Positions 44,630 through 50,195 of a DNA stretch of 64,000 bases are shown one piece after another. The first letter of the stretch is position 1; every line of letters starts with the position of its first letter. Made by a program: the position numbers and the translations under genes. The notes beneath the pieces were generated by a model, which made no database searches, was not told the DNA's origin, and saw only the letters and a list, made by a program, of their open reading frames with translations. This stretch comes from Reichenbachiella agarivorans (lineage in GTDB: Bacteria; Bacteroidota; Bacteroidia; Cytophagales; Cyclobacteriaceae): positions 1,469,001 to 1,533,000 of the forward strand of contig NZ_CP106679.1 in NCBI RefSeq assembly GCF_025502585.1, written 5' to 3'.

Positions 44630-45130
44630 ATGGGATATCAAAGAATAGAAAGAATAAGTGAGGTTTGGAAAACCATTGAAGGATTTTCCAATTATGAGGT
44701 ATCAAACCAAGGTGCAATCAGAAGAAAGGCAAGAAAGACATGGCATAGCGGTTCAAAAAAGGATATTTTTCTCAAAGAACGTGTCATGAGACAGCGATGG
44801 AACAAAAGCTGCAAATGCTTTTTCCTTGATTTGCTCAACGATGAAGGCAACAGAAAGACAGTCTATCCACACAAAGAAGTAGCCAATGCATTTTGCATCA
44901 ATGTGCTCCCAGAAATACACACCATGATTGTTCATCTGGATAACAATCCCAAAAACAATGATTCTACGAATTTAGAGTGGGTTTCACCTTCTGAGCACAT
45001 GTCGTTCCAGTTTGAAGTGGGCAACAAAGACAATTTCAAGGTTTGGAAAACGAGAAAGAAAAGATATAAAAACGGATTCAAAGATCAACCTCAAACTTCT
45101 TTCAAACAAGAAGTTCGAAAAATGGCATAA
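44630..45130 (+). CDS. NUMOD4/HNH-type endonuclease-like protein
   Basis: Protein of 166 residues. EVWKTIEGFSNYEVSNQGAIRR near 11-32 is a textbook NUMOD4 DNA-binding motif, found in phage and homing HNH nucleases. The HNH part is TMIVHLDNNPKNNDSTNLEW near 97-116 followed by VSPSEH, with the metal-binding His in VHLD and the two Asn of the NN-x-NLEW segment in place. The C-terminal tail is basic (KVWKTRKKRYKNGFKD). Such genes are usually mobile or prophage-derived; here it stands alone between a DUF4286 gene and a TPR-CHAT gene, with no intron, intein or phage gene nearby. Whether it is active or domesticated is open. Confidence 0.88.
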   Translation: MGYQRIERISEVWKTIEGFSNYEVSNQGAIRRKARKTWHSGSKKDIFLKERVMRQRWNKSCKCFFLDLLNDEGNRKTVYPHKEVANAFCINVLPEIHTMIVHLDNNPKNNDSTNLEWVSPSEHMSFQFEVGNKDNFKVWKTRKKRYKNGFKDQPQTSFKQEVRKMA

Positions 45131-45182: not shown

Positions 45183-48100
45183 TTATTTTCCGATCAGGAC
45201 AAAAGGAGACCAATAGTATGGATGAGCAAATTGACCACCTTGGTTGATTAAGCTCATCTTTGCTTGTTTTAGGGCATATGCATAACTCAAACTGCTGTTC
45301 AAGTCATTAGGTATAGGCTTGTCTAAGAAGTTGCTGTAAAATTCAATCATCAATTGTTTGGTAGATTCATCAGACACTTTCCAGAGAGATACTGTGATAT
45401 TCTTGGCACCTGCATATATCAAAGCTCTCGAAAGCCCGATAATTCCTTCACCACTTTTGATTTGTCCCAACCCTGTTTCACATGCAGAGAGTGTCACTAG
45501 CTCGGCATTCAAATCTATGTTGTACACCTCTCCAGAGAACAAAATGCCATCCTCTGCTTTGGTCAAAGAGTCTCTCGTCATAAAGATTCCTGAAAACTCT
45601 GGCTCTTCCTGATTCACAAAACCATGTGACGCGATATGTACATAGTTGTAAAGATCCATCGTGCCTGCTTTGGCAATTTCTTCCTTAGCGTTATAATGGA
45701 GGTAGCTATCTGCTTTTTTCCCATTGTCAGCAAACATTTTTGAAAGCGTCTTGGACTCTTCTTCAGTGCCTGGCAGAGAGGGGATTTCACTTTCAGATAT
45801 AGCAATTCCTTTTCTCAAGTTGATCGCCATATCAGACTCCTCGTAGGATTTTTGTTTTGCATCTCTCAAGGCATCCAGTGCATTTTTGAAATCCACTGGA
45901 GCGATAATCATTCCATCCTTTTCTGCTTTGGGTCTGACCGTCTTTTCGTTCCTAAAAGTCTTGTAAAGCAAATTGGCAGAGAAGGTATATGATAAATTGT
46001 AATCTCTCACCAAATAGGGCAGTGAGCCATAATCAGGAATCTCTGAATCTACATCTCGGGTCAGCAGTGCTTCAAATGGAATAGTCGACATCAATCCATC
46101 TTGCACAATGATCAAATTCTTGATGTGCTTGGGGATTTCCATCGGGAACAACTGCTCGTACATCATTCGGGCATATTTGGTATATACCCTGTCACTCTTA
46201 TACAAAATACCCTTTCTCAGCGCCTTTAGATTTTTGTCATAATCACGCTTTTTGTAGGTTTTAGTAATCCTAAAATTATTCTTCTCTATTTGTGTGACAT
46301 AGATGCTGTCAGAGGCCAAGTAATAAGAGAGCATCATGGTAGAATCGTTCAAAAATGATTGGACCTGATCCAAACTCGTAATTTGGATGTCGTACTTCAA
46401 ATCATAATATTTTGGATAATCGGTTTCGAACTGATAAATCAAGTCTTCATATTCTCGATTCGCTGCAAAGAGCTCTCTTTGGTAAAATTCTACCATTGTA
46501 CTGTCAGGATTGGCGGCCAACTCTTGCGTGTAATTGTTGATCAAATCTTTTAACTCCTTCTCTTGGTACAGGAGCGTCTCAGGAATCCCACCATATGATT
46601 TTGCATTGGATTCAGCCAAAGAAGAAAATAAGATTGCTCCTTTGTCCTTTTCGGTAAAGAAGAAAAATCTATCCTGATACTCCTTAAGTTTTTTGGGATA
46701 GGATACATCTGTACCCAACAATTTCACGTTTTGTTCATTGAGCAATCGCGTCAATGAATAAGAAGCATTGATAGATGATTCATAAATTTTGCTAGACAGG
46801 TCGCTCAGCTCTATCTGGTCTCTGCGGTCAGTATATGATTGTCTGATCTGATCGACCAAACTATCACTCAAGATGAAGCTGTGTAGAGAAATATCCAAGC
46901 CTTTTACATTTTCACTCCTTCTAAAACCTTCTTCCAATAACTCTCCCTTGTAGCTCAAGTAATAAAGCAAATCCTTGTTGTCAAAGAAGTTGACCAAAAT
47001 TGGATTGACGAAAACATTTTGGTTGTCAAAATCAATGATACTTGAATTGATTGCACTTTGAATAAACTCCAATGCAGATACTATATCTCCCCGCTCACCA
47101 TACACCCGAGCTAGGTTGTGATAGGCATTGGCGACATTGGGGTGTTCTGAGCCATGGATCGCAATATCTATGTCCAATGCCTTTTTGAAATAACGAATGG
47201 CAAGGTCAAAATCACCAAAGAAATAATAAATACTGCCTAGGTTGTTGTTGGCAGCTGATGAGTTGACGTGATTCTCTCCTACTAGCTTAAAATTGATGTC
47301 CAATACTTGGTTGTAGTATTTCAATGCCTCAGGGAATTTTTCCTGATACATATACGTGTTGCCGAGACCTAAAAAGCTCTGGACGCTATTTTGATGTTCT
47401 AACCCAATTGTTTGAGAAAATAGATCCAAAGCTTTCTGGTAATATTGTTCTGCTTGGATGTAGTCACCTTGGTTTTTGTACACATCAGCAAAGCCTAGAT
47501 AGATAGATCCATACTTTGGGTTTTTTTCGTGGAGAAATTTCTTGTATATCACAAGCGCCTGTCGGTAATACTGCAGCGCCAATTCATATACCCCACTATT
47601 GGAATAAATATCAGCAATACCTACATAGGTAGTGGCGACATCTGGGTGATTCTCTCCAAAGACCTTCTTATTTATTCTGAGGGCATGTTCGTAATATTCG
47701 GTAGCTAGGTTGTAAGACCCCTTGTTGCGGTAGAGGTTTCCCAAGCTCAAGTAGGAGTTGGCTACATAGGGATGGTTTTCACCCAAAATAGCCAAATTGG
47801 TCTCTAGTGCAGTTTGAAAATGCTTGAAAGCTTCTTCATACTGGTTTTTTCCAAAATATACATTGCCAATACCCAAACTAGTAGGTGCTGAGAAAAGAAC
47901 GTCTTCGTGAAATTCGTGATTAGCAATAGATAATGCTTTTTCATATTCCTTGAGCGCCAGTTCATGTTGGCCTGTGAGGTAGTGAATGTTCCCAATGTTG
48001 TTGAGTGCATTTGCTTTTTCAATGTCCCATTCACCGAGGTGTAGATCAGCTAGGTCATAAGCTTCTTGAGCCAACTTCATAGCTCGGTCTAGGTCAAAGG

Positions 48101-48341
48101 TTCCACAAAAATTCTCGGCAATCTTGTTGTCCGAAGCAATAATACCTCTCCAATACTTATCCTTTACATAAATCTCTCTGGCCTTCTCAAAATGATAAAT
48201 GGAACTATCGTGCTTGTTGAATAACAAAAAGGTATCGCCTTTATGAAAGTGGTCATCACCTAGCGCCTTTTGGGAATAAGCAGAATTATAAATACAGATT
48301 GATAATAAGAAGGCTTGTATTACAACAATTCTAATCTTCAC
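45183..48341 (-). CDS. Secreted TPR-CHAT protein (caspase-like peptidase family)
   Basis: Protein of 1,052 residues with a signal peptide (MKIRIVVIQAFLLSICIYNSAYSQ), so predicted to act outside the cytoplasm. Residues about 30-440 hold roughly ten 42-residue TPR units of the kinesin-light-chain type (for example LALKEYEKALSIA and HPNVANAYHNLARVYGERG). A helical linker follows (about 450-700). The C-terminal CHAT domain (about 760-1052) has His906 in HIASHGF and Cys954 in LSACETGLG, the catalytic dyad of the caspase-like fold, and ends with WSPFVLIGK as most CHAT proteins do. Known CHAT proteins cleave partners in defence or cell-death systems; the target here is unknown. It is divergent from an Ig-like repeat protein gene. 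Confidence 0.93.
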   Translation of the reverse strand: MKIRIVVIQAFLLSICIYNSAYSQKALGDDHFHKGDTFLLFNKHDSSIYHFEKAREIYVKDKYWRGIIASDNKIAENFCGTFDLDRAMKLAQEAYDLADLHLGEWDIEKANALNNIGNIHYLTGQHELALKEYEKALSIANHEFHEDVLFSAPTSLGIGNVYFGKNQYEEAFKHFQTALETNLAILGENHPYVANSYLSLGNLYRNKGSYNLATEYYEHALRINKKVFGENHPDVATTYVGIADIYSNSGVYELALQYYRQALVIYKKFLHEKNPKYGSIYLGFADVYKNQGDYIQAEQYYQKALDLFSQTIGLEHQNSVQSFLGLGNTYMYQEKFPEALKYYNQVLDINFKLVGENHVNSSAANNNLGSIYYFFGDFDLAIRYFKKALDIDIAIHGSEHPNVANAYHNLARVYGERGDIVSALEFIQSAINSSIIDFDNQNVFVNPILVNFFDNKDLLYYLSYKGELLEEGFRRSENVKGLDISLHSFILSDSLVDQIRQSYTDRRDQIELSDLSSKIYESSINASYSLTRLLNEQNVKLLGTDVSYPKKLKEYQDRFFFFTEKDKGAILFSSLAESNAKSYGGIPETLLYQEKELKDLINNYTQELAANPDSTMVEFYQRELFAANREYEDLIYQFETDYPKYYDLKYDIQITSLDQVQSFLNDSTMMLSYYLASDSIYVTQIEKNNFRITKTYKKRDYDKNLKALRKGILYKSDRVYTKYARMMYEQLFPMEIPKHIKNLIIVQDGLMSTIPFEALLTRDVDSEIPDYGSLPYLVRDYNLSYTFSANLLYKTFRNEKTVRPKAEKDGMIIAPVDFKNALDALRDAKQKSYEESDMAINLRKGIAISESEIPSLPGTEEESKTLSKMFADNGKKADSYLHYNAKEEIAKAGTMDLYNYVHIASHGFVNQEEPEFSGIFMTRDSLTKAEDGILFSGEVYNIDLNAELVTLSACETGLGQIKSGEGIIGLSRALIYAGAKNITVSLWKVSDESTKQLMIEFYSNFLDKPIPNDLNSSLSYAYALKQAKMSLINQGGQFAHPYYWSPFVLIGK

Positions 48342-48461
48342 TTTTTTATTTTATTTAAAAGACCTAAGGAAGTCTATTTTATTGCTTTTTTTTTGATATT
48401 GCAGATGCAATGTATTTAAATGACTCTGCAATCAATAGGTAAAAATAATTTATTATTAGTT

Positions 48462-50195
48462 ATGAGAAAGGTTTTTACAATTCTTCTATTGTGTCCCTTG
48501 TACCTTTTCGCTCAAGAAAAACCAGCGGTAGACGCCAACTATTATGTTGGAGAAGATGGTAAACTATATTGGCATGGAAAAAAACCTGTTTATATCTTCA
48601 TAGCTGACAATCCAGAAGGTGCTAATGCGCATAAACTGGAGAGTCAAATACATCCACAATTTACTAATCCTTTATACCTTGATACTGAGGGGATTAATTA
48701 CTTTAGAACCAATTGGGCAGCAGATTCATCGCTCAAGCAAATGGTACCAAAAGTGGAAGTTTTATTTGAAGTATATAGAGACAGCAACCCTCCCGTCACT
48801 TCGGTTTCTTACACAGGGGCTCAAAAATTCAAAGGTGCTGATGGTGTCCAGTACTATGGGAAAAACCTAAGTTTGAGCGCTGTAGCCAGTGACAAACACT
48901 CTGGGGTGCAAAAGACATTTTATTCTATTGACAATGCTCCTTTTGCTGTTTATTCTGATTCTATCCCACTGAACACAGATAAAAAATTTGATGTAAAAGT
49001 CTACTCTGCAGACAATACTGGCAATGTAGAAGCCATCCAAATGTTCGATTTTGTGGTGGATATGAAAAGCCCTGTCTCTGAGTATTCGGTTCACAATGAT
49101 CGAAGTGGGATGATTTTTTCTCCGAGAACCTACTTGAAAATAAAATCTACTGATTTGGGATCTGGTATTTCTAAAGTGGTTTACCAAATAGACGACCAAG
49201 CAGAAAAGACATTTACAGATCAAATCAATCTATCCACACTGTCCGACGGCAATCACAAGATTAAATTCTATGCGTATGACAATGTGAAAAACAAAGAAGA
49301 AGAACAGATTATTGACTTCTATCTTGATAGTACAGTACCTACGGTAGAAGCGACCGTGGTTGGTGACCAATACCAGAATAGAGGTAGGGTTTTCATTTCG
49401 ACAAGAACAAAAGTAAAACTGGTAGCGGAAGACAACAAGGCAGGAGTAAAGACTATCAAATACTCTATCAACGGAGCTGAGCCAGAAACTTACTATGAAC
49501 CCTTCGAGTTAAACAAAGAACAGGGCCATCATGTGGTGACTTATTTCGCTACAGATAAGGTCAACAATACCTTGGAAGGAAAATTGGAGGAAGCCAATCT
49601 GAGCCGTTCTTCCCTAGATATAGACATGGTAGCACCAGAAATTTCTTATGATTTCAAAGGCCGTAAGCATGTGTCACGTGACACTACTTTTGTCACTAGT
49701 CAATCAGAGATTGCTCTTTCTGCCTTGGACAAAGACAGTGGAATCAAAGATTTAGGTTACAAAATCAATGGTGGCCAAGGTCAAACGTATTCAGGACCAA
49801 TCAAGCTTGAAGAAGAAGGTTTCTACACCATCGATTTTTATGGCACGGATCAAGTCAACAACCGAAACACAAAGTCATTCTTCTTTGTAGTTGACAATAC
49901 GGGCCCTGCTATTGAGCATATTTTGAGTATGGAACCAATTGGTACGATCTCTTTAGAAGAAAAATCAGGAGTGCCTATCAAGGTTTATTCTCAAGGGGTA
50001 AAATTATTCCTTGGTGCTACTGACAAGACCATCGATACAGACAAGGTATTCTATACTCTGGATAACCAAGCTGAAATTGAGTACATTAAGCCAATTACGA
50101 TTCAGAAGAAAGGATTGGTTACTTATCAGGTAAGAGCCACGGATAAGCTTGGCAATGAGACTAGATCTGAAAAATTCGAAATATTTATCAAGTAA
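48462..50195 (+). CDS. Secreted protein with OmpL47/Ig-like repeats
   Basis: Exported protein of 577 residues; the ATG at 48462 gives the signal peptide MRKVFTILLLCPLYLFAQ, while the longer frame adds 14 unrelated residues. The N-terminal 90 residues are unique (YYVGEDGKLYWHGKKPVYIFIAD). About five repeats of some 95 residues follow, each with a phrase like SGVQKTFYSIDN, SGISKVVYQIDDQ, AGVKTIKYSINGA or SGIKDLGYKINGG and a later HKIKFYAYDNVKN or YTIDFYGTDQVNN. This is the OmpL47-type beta-sandwich pattern found in surface proteins that bind sugars or host matrix. There is no T9SS sorting domain. It may be a partner or substrate of the divergent CHAT protein. Confidence 0.85.
   Translation: MRKVFTILLLCPLYLFAQEKPAVDANYYVGEDGKLYWHGKKPVYIFIADNPEGANAHKLESQIHPQFTNPLYLDTEGINYFRTNWAADSSLKQMVPKVEVLFEVYRDSNPPVTSVSYTGAQKFKGADGVQYYGKNLSLSAVASDKHSGVQKTFYSIDNAPFAVYSDSIPLNTDKKFDVKVYSADNTGNVEAIQMFDFVVDMKSPVSEYSVHNDRSGMIFSPRTYLKIKSTDLGSGISKVVYQIDDQAEKTFTDQINLSTLSDGNHKIKFYAYDNVKNKEEEQIIDFYLDSTVPTVEATVVGDQYQNRGRVFISTRTKVKLVAEDNKAGVKTIKYSINGAEPETYYEPFELNKEQGHHVVTYFATDKVNNTLEGKLEEANLSRSSLDIDMVAPEISYDFKGRKHVSRDTTFVTSQSEIALSALDKDSGIKDLGYKINGGQGQTYSGPIKLEEEGFYTIDFYGTDQVNNRNTKSFFFVVDNTGPAIEHILSMEPIGTISLEEKSGVPIKVYSQGVKLFLGATDKTIDTDKVFYTLDNQAEIEYIKPITIQKKGLVTYQVRATDKLGNETRSEKFEIFIK

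Follow-up and report, generated by a model that had tools for sequence, protein, structure and literature searches.

A conserved divergent gene pair in Reichenbachiella encodes a predicted exported TPR-CHAT protease and an OmpL47-type Ig-repeat protein

CHAT proteins are known from defence systems (PMC10028731, PMC10907252), and among them Csx29, the protease of the type III-E CRISPR Craspase, provides the closest comparison for the locus described here: activation is signaled through its TPR domain, and its CHAT domain is the part bound by the substrate, Csx30 (PMC10028731). In Leptospira, OmpL47 has been found by experiment to be surface-exposed (PMC2698987), and the SiaABC pathway has been described as a threonine-phosphorylation pathway (PMC7647112). 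A literature search of partial coverage yielded no paper describing CHAT proteins exported by Cytophagales or OmpL47 proteins from organisms other than Leptospira, nor any on the gene pair or the receptor association reported below.

The window analyzed here comprises 64,000 nucleotides of the Reichenbachiella agarivorans contig NZ_CP106679.1 (positions 1,469,001 to 1,533,000), and both open reading frames named in the initial annotation are present in it. The TPR-CHAT gene (45183..48341, minus strand) encodes 1052 amino acids from a GTG start, at the same place where most orthologs have ATG. Profile searches, in which the query lacked Met1 and residue positions are hence one lower, identified a CHAT domain (PF12770, 190.8 bits against a curated cutoff of 24, E 4.6e-56) and TPRs (TPR_12, E 2.2e-72). 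The CHAT domain spans residues about 722-1052 (45186..46178, minus strand). The TPR solenoid, at residues about 84-433 (47043..48092, minus strand), consists mostly of 42-residue kinesin-light-chain-like repeats, as delineated by Pfam TPR_12 and TPR_10 and by model helix pairs, and its PDB matches are kinesin light chain TPRs. The structure model, built from a four-row alignment (pLDDT 48.2), is too poor outside the TPRs for a reading of the CHAT fold; some nine TPR helix pairs can be counted in it, not far from the ten or so repeats estimated initially. By residue numbering and ortholog comparison, the annotated catalytic pair is intact, with His906 (codon 45624..45626, minus strand) lying within IASHG and Cys954 (codon 45480..45482, minus strand) within LSACETG, in what is a putative protease. 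No kinase or SpoIIE output domain was detected by profile search, and the orthologs present no internal transmembrane segment.

Residues 1-23 of the TPR-CHAT protein (48273..48341, minus strand; VKIRIVVIQAFLLSICIYNSAYSQ) resemble a Sec/SPase I signal, with a K/R-containing start, a hydrophobic core and a SAYS/Q ending. This region is hydrophobic in all orthologs, yet its identity ranges from 11 to 81%, as compared to 56-89% for the TPR part. The composition of the N-terminus and the conservation of its hydrophobicity suggest that the protein is exported, in agreement with the signal peptide assigned by the initial annotation.

The divergent neighbor is an OmpL47-repeat (Ig-like) protein gene (48420..50195, plus strand) of 591 amino acids, although translation probably starts at Met15 (48462; 577 amino acids), where several orthologs begin. 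From this start, a signal-peptide-like N-terminus (MRKVFTILLLCPLYLFA/Q; 48462..48512, plus strand) can be read, and a hydrophobic N-terminus is kept in relatives, which agrees with the export originally proposed for this protein as well. Its N-terminal domain (residues about 36-123; 48525..48788, plus strand) had been considered unique, but is common to the whole family across the Bacteroidetes (Bacteroidota). The remainder (48789..50192, plus strand) is made up of tandem Ig-like beta-sandwich repeats. The repeats had been correctly recognized as OmpL47-like: five stretches match the OmpL47-type domain NF047446 with 227.4 bits against a cutoff of 40. In the predicted structure (pLDDT 89.6), beta-sandwiches are lined up one after another, and its closest PDB entries in a fold search were fragments of GhpA, the grappling-hook protein of Aureispira, while a PDB sequence search yielded nothing relevant. 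An outer-membrane beta-barrel, as the NCBIfam name would have it, is not supported by this model. Models of the T9SS C-terminal domain matched neither protein. We assume a periplasmic location for the Ig-repeat protein, but it could be exposed on the surface, by analogy with Leptospira OmpL47.

The divergent intergenic region between the two genes (48342..48461) spans 78-120 bp, according to which start is taken. It contains the palindrome ATTGCA-GA-TGCAAT (ATTGCAGATGCAAT; 48398..48411), which is kept in the closest orthologs and for which only one exact copy exists in the genome. A single copy may arise by chance, and the weight of this palindrome as a candidate operator lies in its position and conservation.

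The initial annotation had made its proposal contingent on the two genes being neighbors in related genomes, and the TPR-CHAT and OmpL47-repeat genes lie head to head in all nine assessable genomes with a close homolog, spanning three genera. The pair is present in seven of the eight Reichenbachiella genomes, the one under study included and R. agariperforans, R. faecimaris and R. versicolor among them, where the left flank (serS, GNAT, HNH) is largely common within the genus and the right flank is variable. The same divergent pair occurs with different genes on both sides in two other genera of the family (G009 and G456). The only Reichenbachiella genome devoid of the pair (G005) lacks both genes and presents an empty site, where 44 bp separate the HNH gene from the gene of 435 amino acids that usually lies on the right. 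In the set of genomes searched, all nine intact OmpL47 homologs with at least about 45% identity are paired with this CHAT protein. A further homolog (G573, 44-45%) is truncated by the end of its contig on the very side expected to hold the CHAT gene, and the Flexithrix repeat gene (41%) has no adjoining CHAT gene, the best CHAT match elsewhere being only 35% identical. Joint presence and absence, conserved divergence in three gene surroundings and the empty site demonstrate that the two genes behave as one unit. Across most of the genus, the pair adjoins a free-standing NUMOD4-HNH gene (44630-45130), which is also present in G005.

Phylogenetic inference places the OmpL47 proteins of the pair in a single clade (support 99), suggesting that pairing with CHAT arose once. 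The nearest relatives of this clade, in Flexithrix and others, are orphans standing alone, and a direct swap from a receptor partner to CHAT is therefore unsupported.

The catalytic dyad and its surrounding motifs are kept in eight of the nine TPR-CHAT orthologs, one of them only 55% identical overall. In the exception (G004, L063:5962-9093), Cys954 is replaced by Ser and SHG by THV, and identity falls to 50% in the CHAT domain versus 79% in the TPRs and 68% in the Ig-repeat partner. The divergence of the CHAT domain alongside conserved TPRs and partner suggests that the relationship between the TPRs and the partner may outlast proteolysis.

Ig-repeat homologs sharing the N-terminal domain, at about 30-38% identity, were found across the Bacteroidetes, and many of them directly adjoin a gene for a protein composed of signal peptide, TPRs, coiled coil and transmembrane segment and ending in a SpoIIE/PP2C or histidine kinase domain, as established with Pfam on examples. 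At 79 named homolog loci, the neighbor was a TPR receptor with SpoIIE in 41, a TPR receptor with histidine kinase in 10, a TPR receptor only in 2, an output domain only in 5 and CHAT in 3, with none in the remaining 18, several of which lie at contig ends. Of the 75 non-CHAT loci in the phylum-wide sample, 49 have a TPR receptor gene as direct neighbor, and 48 of these receptor genes are co-directional with the OmpL47-type gene and within 300 bp of it. None of the 308 genes located at least three positions away matches. Rates are lower in the order-level sample (a receptor beside only 9/41 relatives versus 0/199 genes further away) and in the family sample (8/18 relatives), which overlap partly with the phylum-wide one. 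The association between this family and TPR receptors is hence strong, but not universal. Some of the OmpL47/SpoIIE receptor loci also carry SiaC genes, or STAS and anti-sigma-kinase (HATPase_c_2) genes (L157:7188-8013; L147:768-1534).

The common element of these loci appears to be an exported Ig-repeat protein encoded beside an exported TPR domain, with the TPRs of the CHAT protein and of the receptors matching only as generic TPRs, and with an output that varies among kinase, phosphatase and protease. We tentatively envisage, at clearly less than even odds, a modular scheme operating across the phylum, in which the exported OmpL47-type Ig-repeat protein would be a shared input for periplasmic TPR proteins with interchangeable outputs: a histidine kinase, a PP2C phosphatase or a caspase-like envelope protease, the last of these in the Reichenbachiella group.

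That an exported CHAT protein is exceptional was a premise behind the initial annotation, and a weak one, given that exported TPR-CHAT proteins are frequent in the sampled Cytophagales, a sample drawn by similarity to the TPR-CHAT protein of the window. The distinctive feature of this locus is the conserved pairing, and not TPR-CHAT export as such. Another conserved pair was observed in nine loci (L095:6543-10185 in the same genome, at about C1:3072500-3076200, L094, L219-L222 and L224-L226), where a gene for an exported protein of ~320 amino acids with the signature AQGCSDAGFCTMGAMKPDQ directly precedes one for an exported TPR-CHAT protein of ~900 amino acids, often with a 17 bp overlap; those of the ~320-residue proteins that were tested matched no Pfam family. 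Elsewhere, a TPR-CHAT gene overlaps a PorP/SprF gene (L087:6435-10474, E 1.5e-49), pointing to an outer-membrane link, and a TPR-SpoIIE receptor gene precedes a TPR-CHAT gene by 111 bp (L092:10040-15208). A putative second pairing of an OmpL47-type gene with CHAT (L177:443-4599, on the same contig as L249) was not counted, since the 776-residue TPR protein encoded after it has no CHAT profile match and is cut off by the contig end ahead of any CHAT domain.

Together, these observations lead us to propose, with a probability of roughly 0.45, that the two genes constitute an envelope module in which the Ig-repeat rod serves as input subunit for a responding TPR-CHAT protease. In the exported TPR-CHAT protein, the TPR solenoid would recognize the Ig-repeat rod, and either this binding or an alteration of the rod by an envelope signal would shift the TPR arm and thereby switch on the caspase-like CHAT protease, which would then make limited cuts in other envelope proteins. 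The genes, their domains, the dyad in eight of nine orthologs, the conservation of the unit and the link of the partner family with other exported TPR proteins are computed results, whereas both exports, binding between TPRs and Ig repeats, activation by the partner rather than its cleavage and the existence of other substrates are inferred. By analogy with Csx29, the Ig-repeat protein would act as an activator positioned at the TPR end. The model is limited by the many family members without an adjoining receptor and by the solitary condition of the nearest relatives of the CHAT clade. The extracytoplasmic sensing or processing unit suggested initially thus holds as regards the pairing, and its predicted location is consistent with both N-termini; as for whether the neighbor is partner or substrate, a choice that had been left undecided, the gene neighbors of its relatives favor a partner providing the input.

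The most serious competitor, which we nonetheless consider unlikely, is that the Ig-repeat protein is the substrate and that CHAT cuts between its repeats, thereby releasing or remodeling it, much as Csx29 clips Csx30. The strict pairing in nine genomes would fit such a role, as would the Craspase precedent of a substrate gene adjoining the protease gene (PMC10028731), but where a family relative does have a partner, this is in most cases a kinase or phosphatase receptor, which cannot cleave it, so that acting as a substrate would need to be a peculiarity of the CHAT group. Furthermore, the partner persists at 68% identity in G004 despite the loss of Cys954. That same loss, together with the TPRs being the most conserved part of the protein, would be expected if the TPR-CHAT protein were mainly a scaffold assembling or anchoring the Ig-repeat rod in the envelope, with proteolysis secondary or lost in places; we deem this quite improbable in view of the retention of dyad and motifs in the other eight orthologs, even at 55% overall identity.

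There is very little to recommend the notion that the genes are mere neighbors sharing a promoter region, with no joint function: many other members of the partner family do stand alone, but the joint presence and absence, the divergence conserved in three surroundings and the empty site of G005 argue against it. A slimmer chance still is given to an exported conflict or cell-death device, with a toxin-like protease and the partner as its guard, akin to those involving gasdermins or CRISPR caspases. The occurrence of CHAT proteins in defence systems inspires this reading, but PADLOC matched generic TPR models only and no defence-specific one, the neighbor is neither a pore-former nor Cas7-11, its family is associated with signaling receptors and almost the whole genus carries the pair.

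If the Ig-repeat protein is indeed an input subunit, this locus would provide a first testable partner for the exported TPR-CHAT proteins, which are common in the Cytophagales and have no described function in the papers found, and would assign to OmpL47-type repeat proteins outside Leptospira a role as input subunits of envelope signaling. The G004 ortholog, without the catalytic Cys, and the empty site of G005 offer natural comparisons for telling proteolysis and binding apart.

In relation to known systems, the TPR-CHAT protein shares with Csx29 the combination of TPR and CHAT domains and the His/Cys dyad, with regulation via the TPR arm as a proposed parallel. It differs in being apparently exported, whereas Csx29 is cytosolic, and in having an Ig-repeat protein as partner; the alignment of its SACETG motif with LGACETD of the solved Craspase CHAT protein belongs to a non-significant match (E 0.53). 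Neither Cas7-11 nor Csx30 is encoded beside the pair, which is surrounded by HNH, serS, recG and other genes here and by unrelated genes in G009 and G456. The Ig-repeat protein has the same repeat domain as Leptospira OmpL47, well above the NF047446 cutoff, but scores 196.7 bits against the Leptospira OmpL47 equivalog (NF047441), below its 250-bit whole-protein cutoff, and is predicted to form a string of beta-sandwiches rather than a barrel. SiaC-family genes near the SpoIIE receptors of some relatives (L157) recall the SiaABC pathway, although the pair itself comes without SiaC or phosphatase. The periplasmic-TPR receptors with SpoIIE/PP2C or histidine kinase domains have the same Ig-repeat partner family and an exported TPR domain encoded next door; their output lies across the membrane and their genes are co-directional, whereas the Reichenbachiella pair combines divergent genes with a predicted exported protease as its output.
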